Assembly: GCF_003333265.1 (NCBI RefSeq)
Contig: NZ_QOLB01000117.1
Coordinates: 1 to 64,000, forward strand
Length of the DNA: 64,000 nucleotides
Source: Candidatus Halocynthiibacter alkanivorans
Lineage (GTDB): Bacteria; Pseudomonadota; Alphaproteobacteria; Rhodobacterales; Rhodobacteraceae
Reading direction: 5' to 3'
Shown here: positions 3,048-23,120 of the stretch, piece by piece
Numbering within the stretch: the stretch's first letter is position 1
Layout: each line of letters starts with the position of its first letter
Notes under the pieces: model-generated
Databases searched by the model: none
The model's input: only the letters and a program-made list of their open reading frames with translations
What the model was told of the DNA's origin: nothing
Position numbers and translations under genes: made by a program

Positions 3048-4013
3048 TCAGCCTCCAGCCGCTCTCCAGGCTGCGAGCGGCGCGAGCTCCGCTTCCGCGC
3101 CATTCCACCACTCTCTGAGACGCGCGGCGGCCACTAGGCCAGTATCCACAGCCTCGATCTGCTCACTAAGGATACGTTGGGTATCTAATTGCGGCGTATC
3201 AATTACAAAGCCGAGCGAGCGGCCAGCCGGTCGAATGTAGCCCCCGATCGCGCGCAGTCCGTCGGCAACCCCGACCACGCCGCAGGCGCCCGCCATGCCG
3301 GTTAGCATGATCTTGACAGAGGCGGATGGTGCAGCGCTGTCGCGGCACTGAAGCGACATTCGCGGGCGCGGCAGCCCTGCCAGGGACAGTAGCGTGTGCG
3401 GAACGTCGAAGTATATCGTTCGCGACTCCGTTGGACGCACCCTGTTCCCGTTCGGATTTCGCTTGATCACAAGGTCTGGCCAGTTCCCGCTCGCATGCGC
3501 GACATAGTCCTCGAAGAACTCGCCCGAGGCTAGGTTCGGCTCAGCTTCGTAGGGTTCTTCCGCCTGGCGGATCGCTTCCTCGAGCATGGCTCGTTCAGCG
3601 CCAGTGAGAGCTGGTAGCAGTGTTTCGTAGGACACCTGCCGATCGAAGAGCGCGCCCGACCGGCTTGATCCAAGGTAGACCTCAGGCGCCAGGAGGACGG
3701 AGTACGCCTCGACCCCCGTTTCTCGCAGCGCCGTCACGCTCGCGGCGTAGCGCTCGGGCTGTGGAATGCCCTCCCCAGAAATGCTGTAGGCCGCGTCGAT
3801 CTTATTCTCGATAAGGAGACGGCTGCCGCAAGCAAGCTCGATTTCGAGATCAATGGTTCCGGTGTGCCCCACATGTGCTGTCTGGCGGCGGATTTTGCAG
3901 ATACTCCGGTCAAAGTCGAAGATCGCGTCCAGGAAGGTCTCGGCTACACTTGCCTGCATCAGGGCCCTTGCGAAGAGCTCATCGGTGTCACGTTCGTAGA
4001 TTTTCCGGGCCAT
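3048..4013 (-). CDS. PD-(D/E)XK nuclease family protein (321 aa)
   Basis: Residues about 52-72 read TIDLEIELACG then RLLIENKIDA, the D...ExK pattern of the PD-(D/E)XK nuclease superfamily, in the variant ending with ENKIDA seen in many accessory endonuclease genes. The rest of the protein (about 160-321) has no recognised domain. GGGGAG sits nine bases before the ATG and the upstream gene stops only three bases away, so it is the last gene of a three-gene operon. DNA is the likely substrate. A restriction or abortive defence role is inferred from the nuclease fold and the island setting. Confidence 0.75.
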   Translation of the reverse strand: MARKIYERDTDELFARALMQASVAETFLDAIFDFDRSICKIRRQTAHVGHTGTIDLEIELACGSRLLIENKIDAAYSISGEGIPQPERYAASVTALRETGVEAYSVLLAPEVYLGSSRSGALFDRQVSYETLLPALTGAERAMLEEAIRQAEEPYEAEPNLASGEFFEDYVAHASGNWPDLVIKRNPNGNRVRPTESRTIYFDVPHTLLSLAGLPRPRMSLQCRDSAAPSASVKIMLTGMAGACGVVGVADGLRAIGGYIRPAGRSLGFVIDTPQLDTQRILSEQIEAVDTGLVAAARLREWWNGAEAELAPLAAWRAAGG

Positions 4014-4016
4014 ATC

Positions 4017-5666
4017 TCAGAACTCCCCTTCACTGCGGGCTTTCAAGCGCGCTATCCAATTTTCGATATTCCGGTCCTGGGCAGCATGCCATGCCCGCTC
4101 GAGGCGCGCGGTTTGGCGCTTAAGGTCGGATACCACCTCTGTGAGACGGCGCTCCAGGGTGCCGCTGTAGAGTGCATGCTCTACAGCTTTTGCTATCGGT
4201 AGCCTTGGAAAGCTCCGCTCGTGAAGCGGAGGTACCCAGTCGCTCTCGGCGCCGTCCCCGCCCGAACTGGTCGCATCAAGTTCGCCCCAGGCGATTTGTG
4301 CATGACAGGGTCCGATGGACCAGTTCTTTCCCAGCCAATACCGCAGGTAGTCTGGCGTCACAGGCGTATACGAAAGATAACCCGTTTCTGTCTCCACAAA
4401 GCCTTGTCGGCCAACAGGATCCGGCTCGAAGTACCAGGTTTCGAGCTTTGGGTTCTGAAGGAGAAACCCGCCTACGATGGGCATGTCCTCGCCATAATGA
4501 ATCCGCCAGCGCTCGCCGTCTGCGCGCGAAATCGTTGGCAAGACGGGTCCGCCTTCGTCGGTCCGCGCATAGAAGAGGCCACGCAAGACATCCGGCTCAT
4601 AACCCGCATGGACAACGTGTTCTCCCGCAAAGTCGGTCTCTTCGGAAAACGACACGACGACCCGGGGGCGCGTCTCAATAGCGCCAGCGAAACCACCCTG
4701 GCCGTCTGGGACGACCGCGAGCCGCAGCTCCCGATAAAGGATTACAATCCCCGGCAGATTCACCTGTCCTGTCGTCTCGGGGATACTGTAATGCTCGCGC
4801 GGGCCGATGGATCCGCCGGAGTGAACCCCCATCCCGGGTCGAAGAAATTCCCCAGTTCCAAGGTGGTCGAGATCGTACCGCCGAAGATCGTCTTCCGGTG
4901 CAAGTAAAAACTCCATCTCGCCCAACATATAAGGCACCAAGAGGAGCTCCACCGACGGAAACGGGAACATCTCCTCGAAATAGACTCCGGGCTCGTAGAT
5001 CGGGTGGATGGGGCTTTCCAGGTCAATCATGCAATTGCCGTCGCTCGGCACGAGCTGTGCATCGAACATCTCCCAGCGGCAACTCATCCTCTGGATCGCA
5101 TCCAACACACTGCCGAGCGAAGCCCCACAGGCAATTTCCCGGCAGAGACTGTTGAGCAGAAGTGAAAGGTTTTCCCACTCCCGCGTCGCATCCTTCTCCG
5201 TTTCAGCAGTGGGCGACTTTTTGCGGCTGATCGAGAGTGATCGCAGCAGCTCGATCTTACAGTTGTCCGGGTTTTCGCCGCAGGCCTCCGCCGCGACCCC
5301 GACCGCCACAAGATACGGCTCAAGCCCCCTCATCGGGGCCTTCCGTGGGTGCTCTCTGTAGTAGGCCATTGTGCAATCGTCAACGAGATCAAACATGTTG
5401 AGAATTCTGTAGTTATCGTACTTAAAACTTTGTCGGCGTCTGTGGCCCCACTTCAACTTCTCGAAGACCTGGTCCTGGAAGTCAATTTTGCGCAGGCCAG
5501 CCGCACTGGCCCTCCGCCAGGCATTCCGGAGAAAGAGACCAGCGCGGAGATTATCATCCCCACGGAGCTTAAAACCCACCTCAGCCGCCATGCTCCATTC
5601 CTCAAGGAACTCCAGCGATTCCTTGGTGAGACGCTCGCGGGCTTCATCGCGATCGTATATCGTCAT
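4017..5666 (-). CDS. unknown protein of three-gene nuclease operon (549 aa)
   Basis: Start ATG at 5666 is supported by GAGGAGGGG nine bases upstream. The predicted protein is large, soluble and acidic, with a helical N-terminal region (about 1-190), a central region rich in aromatic beta-like segments (YEPGVYFEEMFPFPS, VELLLVPYMLGEMEFLL, VVVSFSEETDF), and a C-terminal helix with heptad character (about 500-545). No signal peptide, no membrane segment and no nucleotide-binding loop are visible. I do not recognise a family. It is sandwiched between a DUF4258-like gene (13 bp) and a nuclease gene (3 bp), so it probably acts with them, perhaps as a sensor or DNA-binding subunit. Confidence 0.7.
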   Translation of the reverse strand: MTIYDRDEARERLTKESLEFLEEWSMAAEVGFKLRGDDNLRAGLFLRNAWRRASAAGLRKIDFQDQVFEKLKWGHRRRQSFKYDNYRILNMFDLVDDCTMAYYREHPRKAPMRGLEPYLVAVGVAAEACGENPDNCKIELLRSLSISRKKSPTAETEKDATREWENLSLLLNSLCREIACGASLGSVLDAIQRMSCRWEMFDAQLVPSDGNCMIDLESPIHPIYEPGVYFEEMFPFPSVELLLVPYMLGEMEFLLAPEDDLRRYDLDHLGTGEFLRPGMGVHSGGSIGPREHYSIPETTGQVNLPGIVILYRELRLAVVPDGQGGFAGAIETRPRVVVSFSEETDFAGEHVVHAGYEPDVLRGLFYARTDEGGPVLPTISRADGERWRIHYGEDMPIVGGFLLQNPKLETWYFEPDPVGRQGFVETETGYLSYTPVTPDYLRYWLGKNWSIGPCHAQIAWGELDATSSGGDGAESDWVPPLHERSFPRLPIAKAVEHALYSGTLERRLTEVVSDLKRQTARLERAWHAAQDRNIENWIARLKARSEGEF

Positions 5667-6535: not shown

Positions 6536-9151
6536 TTAATCATCTGAAACGACCTTGAAAGCCAATTTTTGCCCACCAAGCTCCCGGAAAGCACGCTGGC
6601 GACAGCTAAGCACAATAATTTGCAGATCACCTGCTTGTCTGTGCAGAGCATCAAACATGCGTTCTATTCTATCATCATCCGTATAAACCAGCGCATCATC
6701 CAGAATAATGGGCGCATGACGCCCGCCAGAGGCAAGTAATCGCGCAAATGCCAGACGGACCAGCAGCGCAATTTGTTCCTGTGTGCCTCCCGACAGGACA
6801 CCAATGCTCTCTTCCTGCCCGTCACGGACCAGAGCCGTGGGCAAAATACTGTCCCCGTCAAATATTAGATCGGCATCGGGCCAGAGCAACTTGAGTAACG
6901 GTTTTAGCTCAGCGATCACCGGTTCGAAATACCTGTCCCTTGCGGTGGCGCGGGCGGTATCAAGCGTTCCGGCAAGTTCGTTCAAAACCTCAACTTCGAA
7001 ATGCAGGGCCGCCAGCGTTTTCTCAGTAGCTCCCAAACGAATTGTCATGTCGGCAAGATCTTCTTCAACACCTTCCCCCGAGCGAAGCTCAATTTTCGTA
7101 TCAAGGGCTGCAAGCTCCCGCCCCAAGTCAATGATTTCGGTTTCGGCCTGTTGGCACACGGATTTGGCTCGATCCAATGCCGCTTGGCTCACGGAGAGGT
7201 CAGGGGCTTCTGCGGCCAGATTTGTATATTCTTTTTCTAGTTTCCCGAGTAGCGAGCTGGCGTCATCCAATTCGATAATGGTTTTCCGCTCCAGAGTATC
7301 CGCATTCTCGAACGCCTTCATCGCGATCTCGGCCTCCTCCAGAGCTGCCTGGGCTGCGTCCGCTGAAACACTGGCGCGGGCTGCGGCGTCTCGGTCTTGA
7401 TCGCGCTGATCTCGCGCAGCCTCCAGGTCATCTTCACTTTTCCTCAGGCTCGTTTTTACTGCGTCCACAGCCTCTTGTGCGGACTTGTGATTTGGTAAGT
7501 CTGCATCCGGCTCAACCGCTTCTGGCAAAGACGCAAGTTCTATGCGCAACTCGTCCAGACCATCCGGGGCAAGAAGTGAAACTTTATCTTTGGCATCCTG
7601 AACCCGCTTGGCAGCTTCATCTCGCTGGTTTGCTGCCTTGCGTGCCGCATCAAGTGTCGAAAAATCAGCGTCATCCAGCGACTTCGCAAAATTTGTCTCA
7701 GCCTTGTTTAATTCGTCATCATCGTTGGCGCCCTGCCCAGGGCGCAGGGTAAGAATGCCAAATCCCGGAAGGTCAATCGTGGCACCATCCGGGAGAGGGA
7801 CAACCTCCTGATCTTTCAGAATACCCCCTGCAATCGTGGCTCGCGGGATTTCAGCACTGACATAACTCAAGCTGACTTGTGGAGCGCTGCGCGTGCGTAG
7901 TTCCTGTTGAACAGAGACTTCCTGTGACAGCACATCCAGCTTTTTGATCGTTTTGTGGTCCGGGCCTGTCACCGCTGCTTTACTGTCGCCGGTGATTGAC
8001 TTAGCCAATGCTTCGACGTCGTTGATGCGCTTTTTCAGATCCTTTCGACGCGTTTCGGCGCTGCGCCCGCTCTCGGCTTTCAGAACGGCGTTAAGGGTCT
8101 TTACGGCAACTTCTTCACCCTCGCGGGCCGTTTTTACATCAGCCTTACAGGACACAAATTCCGCCTCGAAATCCTTCAGCGTCTTGACGCATTCTGCTGC
8201 AAATTCAGATGTGTCCGATTGATCCTTCTGCGCTTTCGCAAACGATTTTGTGGCTTTTATAAGTTCTTCCAGCTTGGTTTTCACAGCATCACGTTCCAGA
8301 GTTGCCGTTTTCACCGCATTTTGCGCGCGTGACACGCTATCTGCATGGCGCCGCGCATCGTCATGAACTTTGGTGGCATCTAAAAGACGCTGTTCTCGGC
8401 CGGAGATCACATCTGCATCCTGAAGCTCAGCAAGCGTCTTTTTTATGCCGCGCCGCAGGTCAATCGCGCCGGAAAGTTCCCGCACGGTGTCTTCCAATTC
8501 GCTCTTACGCTGCGCATTGCTGGCCACTTCCTTTTCGGCCGTATCCAGCGGGCCACTTTTCAACACCCGCCCTGTTGCCGTGACATACTTGCTCAGATCA
8601 TCTTGGCACCGGTCAATTGCGATATCCATGCGTCGCCCGCCGGTGAGGGCTTCAACTTCGCCTGCAACCGAAGACATCAGATCCTGTCGGGCGTGCTGCG
8701 CACTTTCCTTTTCCTTTTTAGAACCTTGGTCGAGCGCCGTAATCCCTTGGCGCACCCATAATAATCCGGCAGGCCCTCCCGCATCTCCAGAATGCACTAA
8801 TTTAGCAATCCAGGCCTCGGCATCATCCGCCTTGGCGATCAGTCGATCACCCTTATACACCTCCGCCATCGGCTGTTTCAGCCAACGCTTGATGATGTGG
8901 AACCGACCATCCGGGGTTTCAACCTCGACTTCAACCTGCGGAGCCCCGCCCGCATGCGGTTTCAGAGCCATGATCTCCTTGCTTTTGGCACGATTCACCT
9001 GGAAAAACACCGCCTGCAGAGCATCAAACAATGTGGATTTTCCGTACTCATTGGGGGCGGTCAGAACATTTAATCCGTCTCCTATTCCGTCAATGCGGAC
9101 AGGTTTATCAAAACGGCGAATATCGCTAAGCGTGACAGAAATAAGTTTCAT
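6536..9151 (-). CDS. SbcC/Rad50-like SMC-type ATPase (871 aa)
   Basis: Residues 32-40 form an ABC-type Walker A (APNEYGKST). The C-terminus carries the ABC signature LSGGTQEQIALLVRLAF, Walker B APIILDDALVYTDDDR, and a terminal switch-like region. Between them are long helical coiled-coil arms. The middle lacks the CxxC zinc hook of Rad50 and has instead a glycine/proline-rich beta-like segment (DGATIDLPGFGILTLRPG). Its start overlaps the stop of the SbcD-like gene by four bases (ATGA), so the two probably form a nuclease complex that senses or processes DNA ends. It is closer in style to YhaN-like accessory ATPases than to housekeeping SbcC. Confidence 0.8.
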   Translation of the reverse strand: MKLISVTLSDIRRFDKPVRIDGIGDGLNVLTAPNEYGKSTLFDALQAVFFQVNRAKSKEIMALKPHAGGAPQVEVEVETPDGRFHIIKRWLKQPMAEVYKGDRLIAKADDAEAWIAKLVHSGDAGGPAGLLWVRQGITALDQGSKKEKESAQHARQDLMSSVAGEVEALTGGRRMDIAIDRCQDDLSKYVTATGRVLKSGPLDTAEKEVASNAQRKSELEDTVRELSGAIDLRRGIKKTLAELQDADVISGREQRLLDATKVHDDARRHADSVSRAQNAVKTATLERDAVKTKLEELIKATKSFAKAQKDQSDTSEFAAECVKTLKDFEAEFVSCKADVKTAREGEEVAVKTLNAVLKAESGRSAETRRKDLKKRINDVEALAKSITGDSKAAVTGPDHKTIKKLDVLSQEVSVQQELRTRSAPQVSLSYVSAEIPRATIAGGILKDQEVVPLPDGATIDLPGFGILTLRPGQGANDDDELNKAETNFAKSLDDADFSTLDAARKAANQRDEAAKRVQDAKDKVSLLAPDGLDELRIELASLPEAVEPDADLPNHKSAQEAVDAVKTSLRKSEDDLEAARDQRDQDRDAAARASVSADAAQAALEEAEIAMKAFENADTLERKTIIELDDASSLLGKLEKEYTNLAAEAPDLSVSQAALDRAKSVCQQAETEIIDLGRELAALDTKIELRSGEGVEEDLADMTIRLGATEKTLAALHFEVEVLNELAGTLDTARATARDRYFEPVIAELKPLLKLLWPDADLIFDGDSILPTALVRDGQEESIGVLSGGTQEQIALLVRLAFARLLASGGRHAPIILDDALVYTDDDRIERMFDALHRQAGDLQIIVLSCRQRAFRELGGQKLAFKVVSDD

Positions 9152-10278
9152 TTTTGCCCCTCCTGAAGATATCCGTATAGCCGGTTCAGGGCAGCCGCGG
9201 ATATTTTGCGCGCCTCGGCACTGCGCTCACTGTCCTGCGCCTTTTTGCTGAGTTCTTCGGCCGCCACCCGCAGGGCACCTGCATGATCAATCGCATCAAG
9301 GTCAGCGTCTTCAAATTCAGTTTCAAGCGCACTTGTGTCCAGAACGAAGTGGCAAAATTCAGGTGCAGCCATTTCGGCAGCGACCTGCAGTGCGGCTTGC
9401 TCGGCCAACGTTGCACGCCCGGATGCGCGAACCCTGAATATGTAATCGCGCAATAGGCTGCGATCTGCTGGCAACAACGCCTCGAATGCTTCTGCGGCCG
9501 CCTGTCCGGGCACGAGCGACAGGCCCTCATCGGCCCAGTAGAATTTTCCGGTCTCTACAGTTTCTGTCTTTGGTGCAATGCTGGGGCCATCGAGCGTCAC
9601 GGCAAGGCAGGTTCCTCGTCCACCATGGCGAAAGCTGTCACGCTCGGGCGTTCCCGAATACCAAGTCCGTTTTCCAACCGGAATGGCACCGTGCCAGTCG
9701 CCCAGCGCCAAATAGTCCAGCCCGGCCCCTTCGGCGCGATCAGGCGGAATGATATCATCACCTTCCACGCCTCCCTCGCTGAAATCTCGGATTGCGCCAT
9801 GGGCCAGCCCGATACGCAGCACTTGCGGATCGGTTTTGTGGTTCGCCATCCAGTCCGTCAGATCCCGACCTGGATACCGGCGCGGCATGGGGCACGGTAG
9901 AAGGCACACGTCCTTCTCAATCTCGACCGGCTCGGCGGTGTCGATCAGATGCACATTGGCGGGAGCATGGTGGCGAAACCGATCCCACAGGCTTTCGGCG
10001 GCAAGGCTGTCGTGATTGCCGGGAATCAACCACCATTGAATGTCTGGATTGCGTCCCATAGCCGACAAAGCTTGACGCCAAATGGGATCAGTTGGTGTTT
10101 CGGTATCAAAGACATCGCCTGCCACAAGAATATGAGCCGTGTCATGATCGCATGCTGCCTGGACAAGACGGTCGAGAATTTGATGTCTGGCATCGACAAG
10201 GCGTCCGCGAACGTCTTCGGGCATATTCCCGAAACGGCTGCCCAAATGAAGATCAGACGTATGAATGAAGCGGATCAC
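9148..10278 (-). CDS. SbcD/Mre11-like metallophosphoesterase (376 aa)
   Basis: Calcineurin-like metal-binding motifs are in order: SDLHLGS (D9, H11), AGDVFDTE, IPGNHDSL, LAHGAIRDF and LGDWHGAIP (the usual GHxH is GDWH here). These match SbcD/Mre11-type DNA exonucleases. The start is GTG, overlapping the stop of the upstream 138-aa gene (GTGA). The C-terminal 100 residues are helical and could dock on the SbcC-like ATPase encoded next. Together they would be a manganese-dependent end-processing nuclease, inferred from family knowledge. Confidence 0.8.
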   Translation of the reverse strand: MIRFIHTSDLHLGSRFGNMPEDVRGRLVDARHQILDRLVQAACDHDTAHILVAGDVFDTETPTDPIWRQALSAMGRNPDIQWWLIPGNHDSLAAESLWDRFRHHAPANVHLIDTAEPVEIEKDVCLLPCPMPRRYPGRDLTDWMANHKTDPQVLRIGLAHGAIRDFSEGGVEGDDIIPPDRAEGAGLDYLALGDWHGAIPVGKRTWYSGTPERDSFRHGGRGTCLAVTLDGPSIAPKTETVETGKFYWADEGLSLVPGQAAAEAFEALLPADRSLLRDYIFRVRASGRATLAEQAALQVAAEMAAPEFCHFVLDTSALETEFEDADLDAIDHAGALRVAAEELSKKAQDSERSAEARKISAAALNRLYGYLQEGQK

Positions 10279-10691
10279 GCAGCATCCCCAGATCGTTTGC
10301 CATACTCGAATGCGCCAAGCTCACGAGCTTCTTCGATCGAGCGACAGGTTTCTGGCATTGTCTGTCCCAGCACGATTACCTGATAGACTCGGTTACCCTC
10401 GTGTCGGTGCTGTTCAGTCTTTCGGATGGAAACAGTGCATTGGCCATCGGCGTAGCCAAACGAGACATAACCGTGGACATGGGGTTCAAACATCAGGGTG
10501 CCCGCAGGCTCTGTCGCCTCTGGCCGATCACCAGCCAATTCGATTGCTTCATATTCGTCAAGAATCTGCGCTGCCTTTTGCGCATACTCTGCCTTGCCGG
10601 TTTTCACTATTCTCATGGCATTGAACCACATCGTTTTTCGGGCGTCCGGCAGTTTTGCTAAAAATGCCGCCGGAATGCTATCGTTCGTCAT
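10275..10691 (-). CDS. hypothetical protein of nuclease operon (138 aa)
   Basis: Start ATG at 10691 is preferred because GAGGG lies eight bases upstream; the frame is open further but without such a site. The gene overlaps the end of the 1110-aa nuclease-helicase gene by 14 bases and the SbcD-like start by four, so it is embedded in a coupled operon. The protein has a helical N-terminal half and a beta-rich C-terminal half (HVHGYVSFGYADGQCTVSI, RVYQVIVLGQTMPE). No family is recognised. A structural or adaptor role for the neighbouring nucleases is a guess from position. Confidence 0.65.
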   Translation of the reverse strand: MTNDSIPAAFLAKLPDARKTMWFNAMRIVKTGKAEYAQKAAQILDEYEAIELAGDRPEATEPAGTLMFEPHVHGYVSFGYADGQCTVSIRKTEQHRHEGNRVYQVIVLGQTMPETCRSIEEARELGAFEYGKRSGDAA

Positions 10692-13600
10692 CAGAAATCC
10701 CTCGCGAATTAAATCCACCGTTTGTTGAAATATTTCCTTCGGGCAACGCACAAAGTGTATTCACCAGCCGCATCTGTTCGACCGTCGTGCATTTTGCTTC
10801 GCGCAACCTTGGGGCGCCGAACACAAGTGCCAACCCTTTTGCACGGGACACCGCCACATTGATCCGGTTGAGCGAAAACAGGAATTCCATGCCGCGCGAA
10901 GTTTCTTCGGCGGAAGATGCGGTCATAGATACAAGGCAGATTGGCGCTTCCTGCCCCTGAAATTTGTCTACGGTACCGACACGAATACCTGCAGGCACGG
11001 CCTCAGACAGGGCGTTGACCTGGGCGTTATAGGGGGCGACGACGATGATGTCGCTCGCGTGAATGGGGCGTGTAGTGCCTTCATTGTCGGTCCAATTACC
11101 CTTCAGAAGGTCGTCAATGGCGCTTCCGATCGCCGCCACTTCCTCGGAGGCGGTCTGTGCATTGCCTTCGTGGGTAACAGGCACCCAGAATGCCCCCGCT
11201 TCAGGGAAAGATGTGCCTGTTATGCTCTGACATGCTGTGTCTGGGTGGCTTTCCAGCCGCCCTTCATAGACTTGATCCGAAATGAACCGGCAGACTTCGG
11301 GGTGCATCCGTCGTGTAACGGGCAGAAAAATACCCCGATCGGACGGGATGGTGGCATGATCACCCAACACCCATTCAAGGCAAGACAGGTTTGCCGGGTG
11401 AGGATGCGCTCCCTGGATGACTTGCGGCAGTTGTTGCGGATCTCCAACAAGCACGATGTTGCGCGCGGCGCGCCCCATTGCGAGCATGTTAGCAAGGCCC
11501 ACTTGCCCTGCCTCATCGACAAACAGCCAGTCAAAGACTTGAATGTTCTCGTCGCGGGCAAAGAAAAAGGCGGTGCCGCCCACCACGTGTGACTCCGCCA
11601 GCGCAGGATCATCATTTGAAGTTGAGCGCGAGATCGCCTCGATACCGTCAGGATATCCATCATTGCCGACGGAAACCTTGTGTGCCATTTCCAGCGCGAT
11701 TGGCAGGTCTTCGTCTTCAACTGCAGCCAGGCAGCCCAATAACACATTTCGGATCGCCTCGTGACTGTTTGATGAGACGCCAACCCTGTACCCGGCCCGC
11801 ACGAGCGACAGGATCGCGCGCGCCGAGACAAATGTTTTGCCGGTGCCTGGCGGACCCTGAATGGGCAGAACAGTTTCCTGCATGCGCGAGACGGCACTTA
11901 TGGTTGCGGCAACAGGTTCTACACCATTCAGAATGTCCGCACTGCCGTTTCCCAGCCGTGGTGGGCAGCGCGACAGAAGATCATCCAATGCACGATAGCG
12001 GCGCGGTCCGCATTGATCGGCAATCACGTTGCGAAACGCGTCGGCAATGACTTTGGTGGAGATCGGTTTGTCTGGGTGCAATGTCAGGTGATCCATTAAT
12101 AGCGCCACCCGCGCATTTCCGGTCTTGAGTGTAATGCGGCGCGTCGTTCGGTCCAGTTCCACCACTGAAATCGTTGCGAACCCATCCGGTGTCGGGATTG
12201 TTGCGGAACGGCCCGCGCGCAGCTTGGTTTCCTGTTCTGGAAAACGATATGTGCGCTGCATGGAACGCTTGATCGGCTCGGCAGGCCCGATAGCTTCAAG
12301 CGCGGCAAGCGCGTCCAGATCATCAATCAGGTCATCCTCGTCCTTGGCGAGGCTGTCAAAAATTGCCCACCAGGCCGGTTTTGCCTCCCGTCCGTGGAAC
12401 ATCCCCAGATCGAACAGCATAGTCTGCCGTTCTTCAGTCAGGTCCGAGGCAGACAGTATGGATCGCTGGGCGTCCGCTTCCGCATCTTCCTCTATTTCCT
12501 GTTCAGCGGCATCCAGGCCAAAAACTGGCCACATGCCTACGGGCCGAATACTCGCCAACCAGTTGCGCAGATCCTCGGTCGAGACACAATCGATGCGGTT
12601 ATAATCCTCGATTTCGTCGAGAATCTTCTGCTCGCCCGTCTCCAGCCACTTTTCATAGGCCACGACTGAGCCACCCGCCGTTTTGACCTCGCCGTCGCGT
12701 ACGAGATCATAAAAAGCTTCCATGGATTTGATAGAGTAGTTGGGTTCCGAGCCAATCAACCCGCCGCGCACTACGGCGAAAAGATCGACGAAACGCCGCT
12801 CGCGCAGCAGGCGATCAAGGAAGGCCTCGCCGATACCGTATTTTGCCGTCAGGCGGCGCAAGGCCGTGATCTCGTAAGGCGCATAATGGTAGATCCGGGC
12901 CTGCGGGAATTGCGCGAGGCGGGCGCGGAAGAAATCGAACAGATCGATAACGGCCTGTTTTTCGGCGGCGTGGTCATGCGCCCAAAACGTGACAAAACCG
13001 GAATCCTTTGCCCAGACGCCATGTAGATATTCAAGGCCGTCCTCGTAATGCGGATCACCTTCGATGTCGTAAAACAGATCACCCGGTTGCGGTTCGGGCA
13101 ACAGATCAAAGCCTTTACCGGGCTCTGGGGTGCGCAGAACAAAATCCGGCTCTCCGGTTTTGCGAGCGTGTTGCAGGCGGGCCTGTGTCACCAACCGTTG
13201 AAGAGTGGGCCCGGCCATGCCGCGTACCGGATGATCCAGAGTGGATAAGGCTTCCAGCGTATGCGCGTCCGCCGCCTCTAGCTTTTTCACCTGAGTGCGG
13301 CTGATATTTGCCACATTGAACAGGCTGTCCTCTTCCTGCCAAACCAATTTGCAATGATCCTCCCAACGACAAAGACCGCAAGATGCGCAAGGCGTGGGTC
13401 GCGTTTCTGTCGGATCGGCCACAAAGGCTTCCAGCCGGGCGCGGGCCTGTCGGGCGTAGGCTGAATAATCGGACAGCCGAAGTGTCGCGCGTTCGCCGTT
13501 TCCCAGTTCGATATGCGCAAACTCAGGGCTGATCCCCTGCATTTCAGCGAGAAGATCGGAATAAAGCACAAGTTGCAGAACATGGCTGGGATGTGGTTTG

Positions 13601-14010
13601 CGTTTGAGCTTGGTATCGGTCACCTCATAGCTGAATGCTCCCAGCTTCGAGGGCGTCTCGACACGCTCCAGAAAATCCGACCAGCCGCCCCAATTGCCGG
13701 ACAGGAAGGCTCCCTGAAACACCACATCAGGACCTTCGGCCAAAACTCCGCGAGTTCGCGTGGCGTTCGCAGCCAGATCGTTACTGCCGATCTCGACCAC
13801 CCGGCCTCCGTCTGCCTTGAGCTTTTCCAGATGCGCCGCCTCATGGGCATCGCCCTGTTTTTGCAACAGGGCGGCATCCTCGCTGTCAGCCCTTGGGTCC
13901 GGCCCTCTGCCTTGCAACTTCATGAGATCTAGCGTTGACGAATGCGCGCAGCCCATGAAACGCATGAGGTCCGACGCAGAAAGTAGAATTCGGCCGTCGA
14001 TCTCCCTCAT
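10678..14010 (-). CDS. TM0106-family Cas4-like nuclease / exonuclease / SF1 helicase (1110 aa)
   Basis: Three modules are visible. Residues 1-225 form a RecB/Cas4-type nuclease with D112, D132-T-K134 and four cysteines (C21, C211, C214, C220) positioned for an iron-sulfur cluster. Residues about 310-480 form an RNase H-fold 3'-5' exonuclease-like domain (D315, E317, later YNRID). Residues 700-1090 are a Dna2/Upf1-type SF1 helicase: Walker A GPPGTGKT (719-726), VDEAGQ, GDPQQLPQ, DKFQGQE and NVAVSRAKG. This matches the TM0106-type RecB-like family. It opens the minus operon and GAGGG precedes its ATG. It should unwind and degrade DNA; a defence role is inferred from the context. Confidence 0.85.
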   Translation of the reverse strand: MREIDGRILLSASDLMRFMGCAHSSTLDLMKLQGRGPDPRADSEDAALLQKQGDAHEAAHLEKLKADGGRVVEIGSNDLAANATRTRGVLAEGPDVVFQGAFLSGNWGGWSDFLERVETPSKLGAFSYEVTDTKLKRKPHPSHVLQLVLYSDLLAEMQGISPEFAHIELGNGERATLRLSDYSAYARQARARLEAFVADPTETRPTPCASCGLCRWEDHCKLVWQEEDSLFNVANISRTQVKKLEAADAHTLEALSTLDHPVRGMAGPTLQRLVTQARLQHARKTGEPDFVLRTPEPGKGFDLLPEPQPGDLFYDIEGDPHYEDGLEYLHGVWAKDSGFVTFWAHDHAAEKQAVIDLFDFFRARLAQFPQARIYHYAPYEITALRRLTAKYGIGEAFLDRLLRERRFVDLFAVVRGGLIGSEPNYSIKSMEAFYDLVRDGEVKTAGGSVVAYEKWLETGEQKILDEIEDYNRIDCVSTEDLRNWLASIRPVGMWPVFGLDAAEQEIEEDAEADAQRSILSASDLTEERQTMLFDLGMFHGREAKPAWWAIFDSLAKDEDDLIDDLDALAALEAIGPAEPIKRSMQRTYRFPEQETKLRAGRSATIPTPDGFATISVVELDRTTRRITLKTGNARVALLMDHLTLHPDKPISTKVIADAFRNVIADQCGPRRYRALDDLLSRCPPRLGNGSADILNGVEPVAATISAVSRMQETVLPIQGPPGTGKTFVSARAILSLVRAGYRVGVSSNSHEAIRNVLLGCLAAVEDEDLPIALEMAHKVSVGNDGYPDGIEAISRSTSNDDPALAESHVVGGTAFFFARDENIQVFDWLFVDEAGQVGLANMLAMGRAARNIVLVGDPQQLPQVIQGAHPHPANLSCLEWVLGDHATIPSDRGIFLPVTRRMHPEVCRFISDQVYEGRLESHPDTACQSITGTSFPEAGAFWVPVTHEGNAQTASEEVAAIGSAIDDLLKGNWTDNEGTTRPIHASDIIVVAPYNAQVNALSEAVPAGIRVGTVDKFQGQEAPICLVSMTASSAEETSRGMEFLFSLNRINVAVSRAKGLALVFGAPRLREAKCTTVEQMRLVNTLCALPEGNISTNGGFNSRGISDDER

Positions 14011-14017
14011 GTGAATG

Positions 14018-14105
14018 CCCTCATAAATTGCATCGATATATTCAAAATACCATCGTCGAGAGAATCATCTCGACAGATTTCACTTTGAACTTTAGCGTAT
14101 GAGGG
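14018..14105. promoter_or_regulatory. divergent control region with inverted repeats
   Basis: The 119-bp gap between the nuclease-helicase operon and the WYL gene holds a perfect 7-bp inverted repeat with 6-bp spacer (GTCGAGA at 14055-14061, TCTCGAC at 14068-14074). An 8-bp inverted pair frames it (CCCTCATA at 14018-14025, TATGAGGG at 14098-14105); the left arm includes the ribosome binding site of the minus operon. The inner repeat is a good candidate operator for the WYL regulator, so both directions may be controlled together. This is inference from symmetry and position. Confidence 0.45.
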
Positions 14106-14129
14106 TGTCAATTCCTGTCGTGGTTGAAG

Positions 14130-15113
14130 ATGTCGTTTGCAAAAGCTCAGGATCTGCTTCGTCTCGCGCTGATCGCGTCCTCGCGTCACGCCGGTATCAG
14201 CCTTGCAGAAATTCGCACCGAGTTTGATATTTCCCACCGCACAGCTCAGCGCATGACCGACGCGCTGGAAGCCACATTTGCGAATGTGGAGATCACGGAC
14301 GGGTCAGACCGGCGGCGGCGCTGGCGTTTGCAAGACCCCGCGCTTGAACGTTTGGAGCCACGTCAGGAAACAACGATTGAGGCCCTCGAAATTGCCGTTC
14401 GCGAAGCTAAGGATAACAACCGCTTGCGCCATGCCCGTGCACTGGAAGACTTGCGTGACCAGCACTTGATCAAGCTGCCGGTGCGGGATGCGCTTCGGGC
14501 CGAGGCTGACGCCGAGGCCGTGTTGTCATCCCTCGGCCATGTCGCCCGCCCCGGCCCGCAGACTGGGCAACGCCCAGCGGTAATGGACGCGGTAATCGAA
14601 GCACTGCGTGGCCCATTCAAACTGCGCGTTTCTTACGGTCAGAAGAATAGTGCAGAAAGGATTCTGGAGCCGCACGGTGTTCTGCTAGGCCTGCGCAGTT
14701 ATCTGGTAGCGCGTCAGCCTTCGCGGGGGCCGGAATTGTTGAACTTCCGTATGGACCGGATCCTTGACGCCGCCAGCTTGGATGAAACGTTTATTTTTGA
14801 ACCGGAGTTTTCAATCGACGATCATGCGGCAAAAGCATTTGGCGCCTATCAGGACCCCGCGCAATACGGCGAGGTTGTCTGGAAATTCGCGCCTGCCGCA
14901 GCGGAACGTGCCGCCGGGTTTCAGTTTCATCCCCACCAAAAGTCTGAACGGCAGCCGGATGGCAGTCTGATCGTGAGCTTCAATGCCGCTGGCTGGCTAG
15001 AAATGGCATGGTTTCTCTATCAGTGGGGCGATGCTGTCGAGGTTCTGGCGCCTTCTGGGTTGCGAAAGCTGACTGAAGACTACAGGCGATCCGACTTCGA
15101 TGCCTTGCCATGA
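14130..15113 (+). CDS. WYL-domain transcriptional regulator (327 aa)
   Basis: The N-terminus is a winged helix-turn-helix (SLAEIRTEFDISHRTAQRMTDAL) and the middle and C-terminal parts match the WYL domain (ILEPHGVLLGLRSYLVAR) followed by the usual WCX extension (GSLIVSFNAAGWLEMAWFLYQWG). ATG at 14130 was chosen; a TTG two codons earlier is possible. WYL proteins commonly repress defence or DNA-repair operons and respond to nucleic-acid ligands. This one is divergent from the nuclease-helicase operon and shares a palindrome-containing intergenic region with it, so it is the probable regulator of that set. Confidence 0.8.
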   Translation: MSFAKAQDLLRLALIASSRHAGISLAEIRTEFDISHRTAQRMTDALEATFANVEITDGSDRRRRWRLQDPALERLEPRQETTIEALEIAVREAKDNNRLRHARALEDLRDQHLIKLPVRDALRAEADAEAVLSSLGHVARPGPQTGQRPAVMDAVIEALRGPFKLRVSYGQKNSAERILEPHGVLLGLRSYLVARQPSRGPELLNFRMDRILDAASLDETFIFEPEFSIDDHAAKAFGAYQDPAQYGEVVWKFAPAAAERAAGFQFHPHQKSERQPDGSLIVSFNAAGWLEMAWFLYQWGDAVEVLAPSGLRKLTEDYRRSDFDALP

Positions 15114-15173
15114 GTATCACTTTGCCCAATTCATCAAATTTTTCCACGGCCATTTCACAAGTGAGTATTTCCC

Positions 15174-15839
15174 ATGCCTGAAACCATTCCCCATACCGAA
15201 CTGAAAGCAAAACAGCGCGAAATACGCGACGGGTTTCCCGAAACGATGGGCCTGCGAGTGCATCGCGCGATCAGCTGGATTGGGCGGTCAGAAGCCTCTC
15301 ACGAAGATCATGATGTCCGGTTTGTATTCCTGTGGATTGCGTTCAACGCAGCTTATGCCGGCGAAAGCGAATTCCGGAGCATTGCGCGCGGGGAACGCTC
15401 GACATTCGCTGATTTTTTCAACAATATTGTGGCTCTGGATGGCGAGCAACGAATCTACAAGTCGATCTGGCAGAGCTTTTCAGGACCGATCCGAATGCTC
15501 ATGCAAAACCGATATGTTTTCAATCCGTTTTGGCAGCATCACAACGGTATCGACGGATACGACGACTGGGAGGAGCGCTTTAGGACTTCAGCCCACAGCT
15601 TTGCGCAGGCGCTCCAGTCACAAAATACAGCCCGAACCCTGAGTTTCGTCTTTGACAGGCTGTATGTATTGCGCAACCAACTGGTGCATGGCGGCTCTAC
15701 CTGGAACAGTGCAGTAAACCGCGAACAGGTGCGGGATGGCGCAGCGATTTTAGGGTTTCTGATGCCGGTGTTCATTGACATCATGATGGATCACCCAGAC
15801 GAGGATTGGGGAAAACCCTTCTATCCCGTGGTGGAGTGA
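15174..15839 (+). CDS. HEPN-domain-like protein (221 aa)
   Basis: An all-helical protein whose C-terminal half contains RNQLVH at residues 167-172 followed by GG. This R-x4-H motif marks the active site of HEPN ribonucleases, and the surrounding helices (FVFDRLYVLRNQLVHGG) fit. It follows the WYL regulator by 60 bases on the same strand. HEPN proteins beside nucleases and WYL regulators often act as RNA-cleaving effectors or toxins in defence modules. That function is inferred, since the motif is short. The IS21 element begins 21 bases after its stop. Confidence 0.65.
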   Translation: MPETIPHTELKAKQREIRDGFPETMGLRVHRAISWIGRSEASHEDHDVRFVFLWIAFNAAYAGESEFRSIARGERSTFADFFNNIVALDGEQRIYKSIWQSFSGPIRMLMQNRYVFNPFWQHHNGIDGYDDWEERFRTSAHSFAQALQSQNTARTLSFVFDRLYVLRNQLVHGGSTWNSAVNREQVRDGAAILGFLMPVFIDIMMDHPDEDWGKPFYPVVE

Positions 15840-16263: not shown

Positions 16264-17028
16264 ATGACAACTGCACCCGAACTGCTGCTGGCCCATCACC
16301 TCAAAACACTCAGATTGCCAACCTTCCTGCGCGAGCACGACAAGCAGGCCCGCATCTGTGCCGCCGAAGGCGTGGATCACGTTCGCTATCTGGCGCGCCT
16401 GACAGAGTTAGAGGTGATCGACCGCGAACGGCTCATGGTTGAGCGCAGGATCAAGTCGGCAAAATTCCCGGCCGTCAAAAGTTTGGACAGCTTCGACTTC
16501 AAGGCAATTCCATCCCTAAACAAGATGATGGTCTTGGAGCTGGCGCGCTGTGAATGGATCGAGCGGCAGGAGAATGTCATCGCCCTTGGGCCATCAGGCA
16601 GCGGCAAAACCCATGTCGCGCTCGGGCTGGGGCTGGCGGCCTGCCAAAAGGGGTTGCCGGTCAGCTTCGTCACCGCCTCCTCACTGGCTCACGGGCTGAT
16701 GGAAGCCCGCAATGAGAAGCGTCTGCTACGATTGCAGCGACAACTGGCGAAGGTCAAACTGCTGATCATCGACGAACTGGGGTTTGTGCCGCTCAGCAAA
16801 ACAGGCGCAGAGCTATTGTTCGAGCTGATATCGCAACGCTATGAACGCGGATCCACACTGATCACGAGCAATCTGCCATTCGAGGAATGGACCGAAACAT
16901 TCGGCACCGAGCGCCTGACTGGCGCGCTGCTGGACCGACTGACACACCACGTGAACATTCTGGAGATGAACGGCGAAAGCTATCGTCTCAATCAAAGCCG
17001 GTCACGGCTCGCCAAAGCCAACGAATAA
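16264..17028 (+). CDS. istB: IS21-family helper ATPase IstB (254 aa)
   Basis: Full-length IstB: an N-terminal helical segment (LLAHHLKTLRLPTFLREHD), a Walker A GPSGSGKTH at about residues 109-117, Walker B LLIIDELGFVPLS, sensor region TLITSNLPFEEW and a C-terminal GALLDRLTHHVNILEMNG. IstB is an AAA+ ATPase related to DnaC that selects target DNA for the IstA transposase. Start ATG at 16264 overlaps the remains of the istA stop, as in intact elements. Its transposase partner is deleted, so this copy probably has no transposition role. Confidence 0.9.
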   Translation: MTTAPELLLAHHLKTLRLPTFLREHDKQARICAAEGVDHVRYLARLTELEVIDRERLMVERRIKSAKFPAVKSLDSFDFKAIPSLNKMMVLELARCEWIERQENVIALGPSGSGKTHVALGLGLAACQKGLPVSFVTASSLAHGLMEARNEKRLLRLQRQLAKVKLLIIDELGFVPLSKTGAELLFELISQRYERGSTLITSNLPFEEWTETFGTERLTGALLDRLTHHVNILEMNGESYRLNQSRSRLAKANE

Positions 17029-18101: not shown

Positions 18102-18618
18102 GTTTTTCGGCAGGCGCGCCAGTGTCTCAGAGGCGAACTCAACCCGATAGAGCAGATCCGACCCCGTCTGGCTGCACCCCTTTTGAGAGGTTGACCGAAT
18201 TCGCGTACTCGGAGCAAACAATATTCTCCGACATAGCGTGCAGCGTAGTGCCCTTTATCAACAATAAGAACTTACGCGAAAGGGAGACGACGGTTAGGAA
18301 ATGTTCAAATGGGCAGTCGTTGAGCAGATGCAATCGAATGCATCACAGCAAGCGGACGGAGATTTCCAAAAAACTTCAAGAATTGTGAAATACATTAATT
18401 CGACGAAATACAGCATCCTACTGCGTTTCGTCTGTCTGCAAGAGAATCCGGAACCTGACCTTTGGTTTACTTGCGCAAATTGTTCCGACGGCCAAGGCCG
18501 CATCACAACCGCGCTCTCGGAATGACAAGATTTCAATCGTGCACAATCTTGAACTACCTGGCGCGAAAAAGATGGACAGTGCTATGTTTCATCCGCTCCG
18601 TTCCCCTTGGCTTGCCGT
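18102..18618. repeat. long imperfect direct repeat, copy B
   Basis: Counterpart of the repeat at 1036-1553. It spans the 480 bp downstream of the recombinase stop codon plus about the last 12 codons of that gene. The similarity ends at CTCCGTTCCCCTTGGCTTG inside the recombinase coding region, which marks the likely crossover point. Together the two copies bracket about 16.5 kb containing the putative defence genes. Confidence 0.8.
18301..18525 (+). CDS. small unknown protein, copy B (74 aa)
   Basis: Homologue of the gene at 1236-1460. It has the same length and start context, with conserved AVVEQMQSNASQQADG, RIVKYINSTKYSILLRFVCL and WFTCANCSDGQ segments and substitutions in between. The frame has survived divergence in both copies, so it is probably translated. 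It lies just downstream of, and convergent to, the tyrosine recombinase. The CxxC pair is compatible with a metal site, but nothing more can be said. Confidence 0.55.
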   Translation: MFKWAVVEQMQSNASQQADGDFQKTSRIVKYINSTKYSILLRFVCLQENPEPDLWFTCANCSDGQGRITTALSE

Positions 18619-21030: not shown

Positions 21031-21693
21031 CTAAACCCTTGATTTACCGACAAAACAAATTTGCTCGCTTGCATCAACATACGGTTTTGATTTGCCTCTC
21101 GGGCAATTTTCACTCAAATCTCGCCGAATCCTTTCGGCCAGATCCAGAACGCCAGTTCCAGCTTTTGGATCGTCTCCGCAGAGGTCCATGGCCATGCCCA
21201 GGTGGACGACGCCGCGATACCTCTTCCAGATATTCCTGAGGGCATCCTTATCTCTGGCACCACTTATGCCGAATTCTCTCGCGGCATCACTGACTTGTTG
21301 CAGTATCCCACCGACAACCTGAACACCCTGGAGCTTTCCTTCCCGAATTGAGAGCCAGACCGACTTTCCAATATGCTCGGCAATATTGAGTTTCCGCTCA
21401 TTCCCGTGTCCGTTTTCACCTTCATACCGCCGGGCAGTCTGCATGAATTCATAGATAGCCTCGTGCCGCGCGGGGGCCGACTTCGCCATCCCTGCGACAA
21501 ATTCGGTATTCTTTGGAGCCGACATCCAATCGCCGTCGCCTTCGTCCAGCAGCAACTCAAGCCGCGACGCCACCACGTCATGTTTCACATTTTTGATCGC
21601 TTGCAAGCGCTGCGTATTATCCTCCTCGCTCAAGGCAACCCGGATAAGATCGATATATTGAAACACAGCGCCGTCGATAAATACTGTTTCCAT
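21031..21693 (-). CDS. hypothetical protein coupled to integrase (220 aa)
   Basis: ATG at 21693 overlaps the integrase stop (TGATG), so it is likely translated by coupling. The protein begins METVFIDGAVFQYIDLIRVAL, is mostly helical and soluble, and has charged segments (HEAIYEFMQTARRYEGENGHG, VWLSIREGKLQG). A later stretch (RNIWKRYRGVVHLGMAMDLC) looks like a helical regulatory fold. No family is recognised. Being the second gene of the integrase transcript, it may be cargo or an accessory factor of the tRNA-linked element. Confidence 0.6.
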   Translation of the reverse strand: METVFIDGAVFQYIDLIRVALSEEDNTQRLQAIKNVKHDVVASRLELLLDEGDGDWMSAPKNTEFVAGMAKSAPARHEAIYEFMQTARRYEGENGHGNERKLNIAEHIGKSVWLSIREGKLQGVQVVGGILQQVSDAAREFGISGARDKDALRNIWKRYRGVVHLGMAMDLCGDDPKAGTGVLDLAERIRRDLSENCPRGKSKPYVDASEQICFVGKSRV

Positions 21694-22880
21694 CAGGACG
21701 CCACCGGATTGCAGGCGCTTACGACGAATTGAGACCAATCGCGCATCAATGCGCGTCGTTTTTCCAGCAGGTCTGAACGTGCGTAAGCTCTCTCCACATC
21801 CGACCCGACGGAGTGGGCTAAGCTCTTCTCAGCGACCTCCCGTGGGGCGTTCGCCACCTCAGAAGCCCAGTCCCGGAATGTCGACCGGAACCCATGCACA
21901 GTGACGCCTTCAACGCTCATTCGGCGTAACAGCATCAGCATCGACATATTGGACAGTGGCTTGTGCCGTTTCTGCCCCTCAAAAACGTAGTCAGACTTCA
22001 TTGCCTTCAACGGCTCGATGATCGCCAGCATTTCATCCGTCAGCGGAACACGGTGCTCTTCGCCCGTCTTCATACGTTCCGGCGGGCAGGTCCACAGGCG
22101 ATCTTCAAAATCGATCTCTTCCCAGCGAAGCCCCAGGGCCTCGCCCGTTCTTGATCCCGTCAGACACGTAAACATCAGAGCTTTTGCTGCCATCGCTTTG
22201 CGGGATTTCAGGTCAGCGTAGAAATCCGGCACATCTTTCCAGTGCATCGCCTTGTGGTGCTTCACCCTGGCTTTGACTTTCGGCAACGCCTGCGCGTCCT
22301 TGATCGCGGTGACCGGGTTCTCACCCGATCGGAACCCCTTGGAACGCGCCACATCCAGCACCGTCTTGATCCGTTGAGCAAGCCGCTTCGCGGTCTCATG
22401 CTTCTCCGTCCAGACAGGCGCAAGGCGCATCATCACTTCCGGCTGATCAATACTGTTGATCGGCATCCGGCCAATCTTGGGGAAGGCGTAGTCCCGCAAT
22501 GTGTTGATCCACTGCTGACCATGCTTGGCATTCTTCCACGTTGGCATCCGGTCAATATGAACCTGACGCGCCACCTCTTCAAAGCTCGGCACCTCCTGCC
22601 GCGCATTAAAACGTGGGTTCAACCCTTGCTTGGCCATGCGGCGATATTCCAGCGCCCGTTCACGCGCCTGGTTGAGCGTCACGATGTCCGCCCCACCCAA
22701 GCCAAAGTCAGTGCGCAGCGGTGCGCCTTTTTTGTTCTTCTGGCCTTTGACCACCACCCGCACGATCCAACGCCGAGCGCCGGATGGATCAACCACCAGA
22801 TACAAGCCGTTGCCATCTCCGTGACGCCCAGCGCTTAGATTCTCAACCAGCTTCTTCGTCAGCTTGCCAGATAGGGCCAT
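21693..22880 (-). CDS. P4-type tyrosine integrase (395 aa)
   Basis: The N-terminus (LTKKLVENLSAGRHGDGNGLYL, VDPSGARRWIVRV) is the DUF4102 arm-binding domain typical of P4-like integrases. The core has TGSRTGEALGLRWEEID (Arg), HGFRSTFRDWASE (His-x-x-Arg) and a late KSLAHSVGSDVERAYARSD (His, Tyr). Start ATG at 22880 matches the usual family start; longer frames exist upstream. It lies 150 bp from the 3' end of tRNA-Ser, the classic arrangement for an island whose attB is the tRNA 3' end. It should catalyse integration and excision of the region to its left. Confidence 0.9.
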   Translation of the reverse strand: MALSGKLTKKLVENLSAGRHGDGNGLYLVVDPSGARRWIVRVVVKGQKNKKGAPLRTDFGLGGADIVTLNQARERALEYRRMAKQGLNPRFNARQEVPSFEEVARQVHIDRMPTWKNAKHGQQWINTLRDYAFPKIGRMPINSIDQPEVMMRLAPVWTEKHETAKRLAQRIKTVLDVARSKGFRSGENPVTAIKDAQALPKVKARVKHHKAMHWKDVPDFYADLKSRKAMAAKALMFTCLTGSRTGEALGLRWEEIDFEDRLWTCPPERMKTGEEHRVPLTDEMLAIIEPLKAMKSDYVFEGQKRHKPLSNMSMLMLLRRMSVEGVTVHGFRSTFRDWASEVANAPREVAEKSLAHSVGSDVERAYARSDLLEKRRALMRDWSQFVVSACNPVAS

Positions 22881-23030
22881 TTCAAAATACCACATTTCAT
22901 ACCACTCAAGGAATGAATATAGGCACAACCGAAAGAAACTCAAGACAAACGAAAAATCCAGCTAAGCTCAAGTAAACAAATGAAAAAGGCCGCCCAAGGC
23001 GACCCAATTCAAACTAACAAAATTGTGTGG

Positions 23031-23120
23031 TGGCGGAGACGAAGGGATTCGAACCCTCGAGACCCTTCCGGGCCTACTCCCTTAGCAGGGGAGCGCCTTC
23101 GACCACTCGGCCACGTCTCC
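23031..23120 (-). tRNA. tRNA-Ser (anticodon GCU)
   Basis: The minus strand folds as a class II tRNA: acceptor GGAGACG pairs with CGTCTCC, anticodon arm CCCTGCTAAGGG gives anticodon GCT, a long variable arm follows, then a TTCGAAT T-loop, discriminator G and an encoded CCA. It should read AGC and AGU serine codons. The integrase on its 3' side indicates use as an integration site. Confidence 0.95.

Follow-up and report, generated by a model that had tools for sequence, protein, structure and literature searches.

A candidate mobile and modular defence locus centred on a Dna2-like nuclease-helicase in Candidatus Halocynthiibacter alkanivorans

We describe six neighbouring genes in a 64,000-nucleotide stretch of Candidatus Halocynthiibacter alkanivorans DNA (RefSeq assembly GCF_003333265.1, contig NZ_QOLB01000117.1, positions 1 to 64,000; hereafter the window). 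A minus-strand operon encodes a nuclease-helicase, a 138-residue protein (P138), an SbcD-like phosphoesterase and an SbcC-like ATPase, and a WYL-domain regulator and a HEPN protein are encoded divergently from it (Table 1). We read these genes as one form of a mobile, modular defence locus, in which the constant part is a Dna2-like nuclease-helicase with a divergently encoded WYL regulator and, in most cases, a HEPN protein, and an adjoining cassette, here SbcCD-like, is exchangeable; we put the probability of this reading at roughly 55%. The genes co-occur across genomes and keep their catalytic motifs, SbcCD has joined the nuclease-helicase repeatedly, and cassettes are exchanged where the nuclease-helicase gene ends. 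Judged from its sequences, the locus would serve in anti-phage defence.

The WYL and HEPN genes travel with the nuclease-helicase

Co-occurrence was counted in one draw of 390 Rhodobacterales genomes, with at most two candidates scored in most genomes. The nuclease-helicase is present in 32 of these genomes and the HEPN protein in 31, and both are found in 19, against 2.5 expected (Fisher p 3.6e-16); without the window's own genome the two are shared by 18 of 389. They lie within 10 kb of each other on one contig in 18 of the 19 shared genomes, the exception being G508, and one of these 18 close pairs (G523) involves a broken HEPN fragment. The SbcC-like protein, present in 74 of the 390 genomes, accompanies the nuclease-helicase in 13, against 6.1 expected (p 0.0025), and the two are neighbours in five genomes including the window's. 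Under uniform placing, at least four neighbours among the other 12 would have a probability of 1.6e-8, a figure that is overstated since defence genes cluster. In 70 loci whose nuclease-helicase is at least 68% identical and whose upstream sequence exceeds 4 kb, WYL is found in 58, HEPN in 45 and either in 64. As a whole, the set is thus found together rather than scattered as housekeeping genes, which bears out the proposal of an earlier note on this DNA that the genes form one set: WYL and HEPN accompany the nuclease-helicase, and SbcCD is joined to it in several lineages.

Cassettes are exchanged at the end of the nuclease-helicase gene

The region downstream of the nuclease-helicase was compared in 112 distinct loci, a non-random sample that combines the best 80 of 115 genome loci with plasmid matches and sampled genomes and that was reduced from 130 by greedy removal at 97% or higher identity of the nuclease-helicase; genes in the fetched loci were predicted with a custom codon scorer. 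The downstream cassette is of McrBC type in 36 loci, TmtA-like in 23, of Sacsin/DrmD type in eight and SbcCD in five. These identities rest on Pfam and PADLOC matches (McrBC, PF10117 at 8.2e-74; TmtA in PADLOC, 2.1e-269 and E 0; a Sacsin domain in a giant protein, 2.4e-23; the helicase DrmD, 1.1e-226). The nearest relative of the window (L007, 86%) has a TmtA-like cassette.

Between close relatives with different cassettes, the DNA breakpoint falls in the last codons of the nuclease-helicase gene. In all eight pairs chosen (90-95% DNA identity) homology ends at the 3' end of this gene, and in three of them (L025/L066, L073/L026 and L035/L066) it returns past the cassette. The protein itself is kept as far as ...LVNTLCAL and is divergent beyond. 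Among locus pairs at least 93% identical over the last 400 residues, the cassettes differ in 41 of 70. On the tree the four cassette types need 25 changes, whereas shuffled labels average 31.0 and fall to that level in 2 of 200 trials; this and the other tree given below were made by fast methods (FastTree; quick IQ-TREE) and have many open forks, and their change counts are blind to gain versus loss. Cassette turnover is fast and randomisation is incomplete.

The C-terminal tail of the nuclease-helicase and the cassette vary together. For 49 of 64 loci, the locus most similar in the tail has the same type of cassette (shuffles 23.8, reached by 0 of 2000); for similarity in the constant part the count is 29 of 64 (shuffles 23.6, reached by 292 of 2000). 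Because the tail DNA adjoins the cassette, this linkage alone is no proof of docking. We tentatively entertain, as a possibility that goes further than the modular locus, a plug-in immune locus in which one nuclease-helicase with WYL and HEPN would serve unrelated recognition modules (SbcCD, McrBC, TmtA-like, Sacsin/DrmD-like), exchanged by recombination at the extreme 3' end of its gene and each supplying a matching C-terminal docking tail, the SbcCD form being a Mre11-Rad50-Dna2 machine turned against foreign DNA.

Much of the same data would also be accounted for by a defence hotspot, in which the nuclease-helicase, WYL and HEPN form one system while McrBC, TmtA-like, SbcCD and other genes are independent systems that insert at its 3' end and borrow its promoter and regulator, with no shared mechanism. 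The partners are indeed mutually unrelated, and some occur or act alone, as TmtA-like proteins and McrBC do; further, clearly separate systems come next in Sphingobium plasmids, and RepB/ParB-like genes with a serine recombinase often stand at the right border. A mere neighbourhood fits less well with frames that overlap or abut, with a nuclease-helicase tail that goes with the cassette, with SbcCD joined before, after and beside the nuclease-helicase, and with a full-length McrB of the relatives' type adjoining the nuclease-helicase in six of the seven plasmid records with at least 67% coverage. We regard the hotspot as a serious but rather unlikely explanation.

SbcCD has joined the locus in several arrangements

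SbcC or SbcD lies within reach of the nuclease-helicase in 15 of the 112 loci, with L030 (a long SbcC only), L041 and L046 as weak cases. One locus (L098) repeats the window's order of nuclease-helicase, P138, SbcD and SbcC, with 4-base overlaps and a divergent WYL gene; no HEPN gene was seen there. Sphingobium-type plasmids carry HEPN, a DUF3883 gene and WYL, followed by nuclease-helicase, SbcD and SbcC without P138, and in one locus (L090) an IS1380 transposase interrupts the WYL region. In L100 and L101 a single operon runs SbcD-SbcC-nuclease-helicase-HEPN-McrB-McrC, with frames that overlap or lie at most 4 bases apart; L099 resembles these, but its HEPN gene lies outside and a gap of 118 bases precedes McrB. 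A longer type of SbcC, with SbcD, stands beside HEPN, WYL and the nuclease-helicase in L086, L094 and L120, and L081 has a 1244-aa SbcC-like protein. On an SbcC tree of 32 rows, made by a quick method, the nine rows linked to a nuclease-helicase need six changes.

The exact six-part composition put forward in the earlier note did not hold up as a fixed set. It is rare: SbcCD accounts for five of the 72 typed loci and P138 is found in four of the 112, its relatives being confined to L098, L103 and L077 (25, 25 and 63% identity); in one locus no SbcCD follows P138, and in one it precedes a TmtA-like gene. Separately, L138 carries WYL-SbcD-SbcC-HEPN at 7708-12000 without a nuclease-helicase, possibly a smaller form of the system.

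Several further observations weigh against a constant engine with exchangeable cassettes. Among distant relatives (30-45% identity), WYL is found in 1 of 12 loci, HEPN in none of 12 and either in 1 of 12; as the two are present in close loci and nearly absent in distant ones, their association belongs to one branch, and even among the 70 close loci 25 have no HEPN. Of the 32 Rhodobacterales genomes with the nuclease-helicase, 27 have no SbcCD beside it; SbcCD also exists separately, and most of 20 SbcCD loci fetched regardless of the nuclease-helicase lie apart from it. The downstream gene is untyped in 32 of the 112 loci and the sequence is too short in eight, and the cassettes retain some phylogenetic signal on the tree. 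TmtA-like proteins are also found without the nuclease-helicase. Restriction by McrBC on its own is well established, and McrBC may therefore not need the nuclease-helicase.

The encoded proteins keep their catalytic motifs

Re-reading of the open reading frames and strands returns the minus-strand operon of four overlapping genes as claimed, with 14 bases shared by nuclease-helicase and P138, 4 by P138 and SbcD and 4 by SbcD and SbcC. The claimed 1110-aa fusion is likewise supported by all of its domains: the TM0106 nuclease (E 4.6e-75, 253.3 bits against a cut-off of 97.45), RNase_H_2 (1.1e-26, above the Pfam cut-off) and the helicase domains AAA_11 and AAA_12 (above Pfam cut-offs). The protein has all the features of a TM0106-family nuclease fused to an SF1 helicase (COG2251-like). 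In the accessible text of one paper, COG2251 corresponds to PF13482 and has a PD-(D/E)XK-like domain, often together with tandem AAA domains (PMC3985635). By sequence, mouse DNA2 is the closest protein of known structure (1.5e-17), matching best over residues 683-930 of the helicase; SMUBP-2, SEN1 and UPF1 come next.

In the alignment of the 112 loci, with full-length numbering, H56, D112, D132-x-K134 and C211/C214/C220 are conserved at 1.00 of filled rows, as are D315/E317, D409, D474, K725 and D832/E833. The first cysteine, C21, is found in 107 of the 112 (97 by pattern and 10 among listed exceptions), and the remaining five, in which it is not visible, are shortened at the N-terminus. We take the four cysteines to be an Fe-S pattern and the domain order to be Dna2-like.

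The SbcD-like protein matches TIGR00619 at 4.1e-17 with 62.8 bits, below the family cut-off of 77.65, and matches solved SbcD structures by sequence. GDxxD, GNHD, the motif IV histidine and the last histidine of motif V are kept in 38 relatives, and the window protein has GDWH at the site of GHxH, the usual SbcD motif. This Mre11-type phosphoesterase with intact metal motifs thus adjoins, through the 4-base overlap, a Rad50-type ABC ATPase. The SbcC-like protein scores above the Pfam cut-off for AAA_23 and just below it for SbcC_Walker_B, matches solved Rad50 structures, and has Walker A, signature and Walker B motifs that are invariant in 28 rows. The earlier note was right to name an SbcD-like and SbcC-like pair. 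Its proposal that a beta-like segment replaces the zinc hook is also supported: CxxC is absent from residues 380-520 of the window SbcC and from all 32 homologues (0/32), and an AlphaFold2 model (mean pLDDT 82.8, pTM 0.42) places a beta segment at about residues 424-469, at the tip of a long coiled coil that extends from ATPase heads. A Foldseek search with this model finds the heads of Smc5/6, Rad50 and SbcCD. As the pair lacks the zinc hook and falls below the curated SbcD score, we class it as SbcCD-like only. We rejected its being the ordinary copy of the cell, in view of a second pair of the family in this genome (35% identical).

An operon for DNA repair or plasmid maintenance, with end processing of the Mre11-Rad50/Dna2 kind and no part in defence, would suit these families, whose known SbcCD-like and Dna2-like members are repair enzymes, and stand-alone SbcCD pairs of the window family are common (the 74 genomes above). 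We consider it improbable, given that the nuclease-helicase is patchy (9 of 385 genomes of the class, 32 of 390 of the order and 17 of 398 of the phylum), that it sits on islands or plasmids, that SbcCD swaps with McrBC and TmtA-like cassettes, and that HEPN and WYL are its partners.

P138 matches no Pfam family above cut-off, and its AlphaFold2 model (mean pLDDT 70.2) has no match in the PDB at E<=0.001. A single weak plasmid match (37.5% over 72 aa) lies within a protein annotated as an HNH endonuclease. Downstream of SbcC, two genes in the same direction (3048-5666), encoding 321 and 549 aa, have no Pfam, PADLOC or NCBIfam match.

The WYL regulator and the HEPN protein with RNQLVH are present as described in the earlier note. 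The regulator matches WCX (2.9e-11) and WYL (2.5e-6), both above the Pfam cut-off, with a weak match to a helix-turn-helix domain; its place divergent to the operon would fit a regulator of BrxR/CapW type, a type that joins a winged helix-turn-helix to WYL and WCX and stands divergent to a defence operon, and it may bind DNA. Its start is more likely ATG 14130 (327 aa) than TTG 14124 (329 aa), because the 327-aa form aligns with relatives. According to the accessible part of one report, a defence island is kept repressed by a WYL regulator by way of inverted repeats (PMC9122601). The HEPN protein has a sub-threshold Pfam HEPN match (E 0.085); R167 and H172 of its RxxxxH motif are conserved in 72 of 72 homologues, and NCBI labels its relatives 'HEPN domain-containing protein'. 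HEPN RNases have this motif in an all-helical fold, and the CoCoNuT effector downstream of the UPF1-like helicase joins a winged helix-turn-helix to HEPN; by Pfam, no winged helix-turn-helix is seen in the window protein. HEPN genes adjoining restriction systems were read as second lines of defence in the accessible text of a 2013 survey (PMC3710099).

The intergenic region between the regulator and the operon contains the octamers CTCGACAG (14069-14076) and GTGTCAAT/ATTGACAC (14105-14112), which recur in 31 and 32, respectively, of the 38 intergenic regions compared between divergent genes, counts made without a shuffled or relatedness control. An inverted repeat at 14055-14074 was considered as a common operator and rejected, being absent from most relatives' intergenic regions.

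The locus lies on mobile DNA

Table 1. Features of the locus and its surroundings, in window coordinates.
Feature	Position	Strand	Description
Nuclease-helicase (TM0106 family)	10678..14010	-	1110 aa; Cas4/RecB-like nuclease, DEDD (RNase_H_2) exonuclease and UPF1/Dna2-like SF1 helicase
P138	10275..10691	-	138 aa counted from its ATG; no family assigned
SbcD/Mre11-like phosphoesterase	9148..10278	-	376 aa
SbcC/Rad50-like ATPase	6536..9151	-	871 aa; beta segment in place of CxxC zinc hook
WYL/WCX-domain regulator	14130..15113	+	divergent from minus-strand operon
HEPN protein	15174..15839	+	221 aa; RNQLVH at residues 167-172
Putative divergent promoter/operator region	14011..14129		octamers and inverted repeat
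Tyrosine integrase	21693..22943	-	Phage_integrase, Arm-DNA-bind_3; adjoins tRNA-Ser
tRNA-Ser	23031-23120		beside tyrosine integrase

The partner genes and the surroundings belong to defence and mobile-element types, in line with the defence system that the earlier note proposed. The locus lies in a stretch of low G+C (0.51-0.59 across window bases 1-24000, mostly 0.58-0.64 further on), and the integrase beside tRNA-Ser is the probable right border of an island; a second tyrosine-recombinase-like gene is also in the window. A second copy of the tRNA-Ser 3' end was found neither in the window nor, by exact match only, in the genome, and the island's left end is not located because the contig begins at window base 1. 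Direct repeats of about 366 bases, 86-92% alike, flank the locus (1038-1404 and 18104-18469), and a gene for an IS21-type IstB helper ATPase (16264-17028) adjoins the HEPN gene.

Many nuclease-helicase records are plasmids (67 at E<=1e-40). RepB-like genes with a serine recombinase are found in 9-12 of the 112 loci behind different cassettes; in L066 (18228-21566) and its relatives the right border repeatedly consists of two RepB/ParB-like genes together with a serine recombinase. Gene-transfer-agent (GTA) genes occur in nine of the 112 loci by one marker and in nine by another. GTA genes (GTA_TIM or peptidase M15 clusters) share the fetched stretch with the locus in L012, L013, L016, L017, L018, L020, L031, L032, L051, L079, L083 and L133, often just past HEPN; integration may thus be favoured at the end of the GTA cluster. 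Blocks of 5-10 kb with 94-95% DNA identity are shared across alphaproteobacterial genera (L025/L066, L073/L026 and L035/L066), which points to recent horizontal transfer. A phage origin is unsupported, with matches in 3 of 50,697 phage records, each covering at most 25% of the query. On a Phenylobacterium plasmid (L097), a 44% identical nuclease-helicase directly follows multiubiquitin, E2/UBC and ThiF-family genes.

Relation to known systems and proposed mechanism

Induction through WYL, hand-over of DNA ends and cleavage of RNA are what the sequences of the locus lead us to propose. The WYL regulator would repress the locus until an infection signal, and the cassette would recognise or open foreign DNA, SbcCD at ends, hairpins or protein-blocked ends and McrBC at modified DNA. 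The nuclease-helicase would load at the exposed end, unwind the DNA and degrade it, and the HEPN protein may act as a back-up RNase that cuts RNA as a second, suicidal line. Such a hand-over of ends would parallel that from Mre11-Rad50 to Dna2 during end resection in eukaryotes. The window likewise encodes an SbcD/SbcC pair and a RecB/Cas4-like nuclease fused to a UPF1/Dna2-like helicase, but it adds a DEDD exonuclease, WYL, HEPN and a mobile island and has no zinc hook; the likeness may be one of working, not of membership.

Among defence systems, McrBC Type IV restriction is represented by the 36 loci with McrB and McrC after the nuclease-helicase, but the window set has no McrBC gene and the relatives add the nuclease-helicase, WYL and HEPN. 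The TmtA-like cassette corresponds to Tiamat (TmtA), a single-gene system in PADLOC, whereas here the TmtA-like gene follows the nuclease-helicase. Mokosh has the helicase half in common (MkoA 3e-45, MkoC 1.5e-32), with the best stretches at residues 790-1095, but no match to the nuclease halves or partners was seen. Lamassu and SMC-like defence, as far as described in the accessible text of PMC10586767, shares a Rad50-like ATPase, and LmuB matches the first 92 residues (1.6e-11), but the window has an SbcD-like phosphoesterase and the nuclease-helicase in place of LmuA and LmuC.

The nearest system in print is CoCoNuT, in which, in the accessible text of PMC11090510, McrBC, a UPF1-like helicase and HEPN can co-occur, helicase and HEPN being together in types II and III. 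An RNA-targeting Type IV variant of this kind, with the helicase and HEPN acting on RNA and the DNA enzymes secondary, nevertheless seems to us very improbable. Two nuclease domains of DNase type, with intact motifs, are part of the same polypeptide as the helicase; the relatives' McrBs carry NxxD (MNTADR in 45 and MNAADR in 2 of 47 rows) where CoCoNuT, as described there, has NxD; and the McrC nuclease motif is conserved in the relatives. By the McrB motif, CoCoNuT is excluded for the McrBC relatives; the window set has no McrB and hence no NxD-motif GTPase of the CoCoNuT kind. The words COG2251, RecB and Tiamat are absent from the accessible text of the CoCoNuT paper (PMC11090510).

PADLOC-DB 2.0.0 gives partial or generic matches only (Mko for the helicase part, LmuB for the N-terminus, and WYL), with none for the whole set and nothing for SbcD, P138 or HEPN at E<=0.01. 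The earlier note knew of no named system of the same composition, and we found none in PADLOC-DB or in the literature searched, in which subscription papers and bioRxiv are sparsely covered. The parts belong to known families; their arrangement and exchange appear to be new.

If the exchange is functional, bacteria could exchange the half of a defence that recognises its target and retain the half that degrades DNA, which would explain why McrBC, Tiamat-like and SbcCD-like genes are found at one genetic address. The SbcCD form would then be a naturally occurring bacterial equivalent of Mre11-Rad50 plus Dna2, aimed at invaders. The locus thus poses a testable question, namely whether the modules depend on the shared nuclease-helicase.

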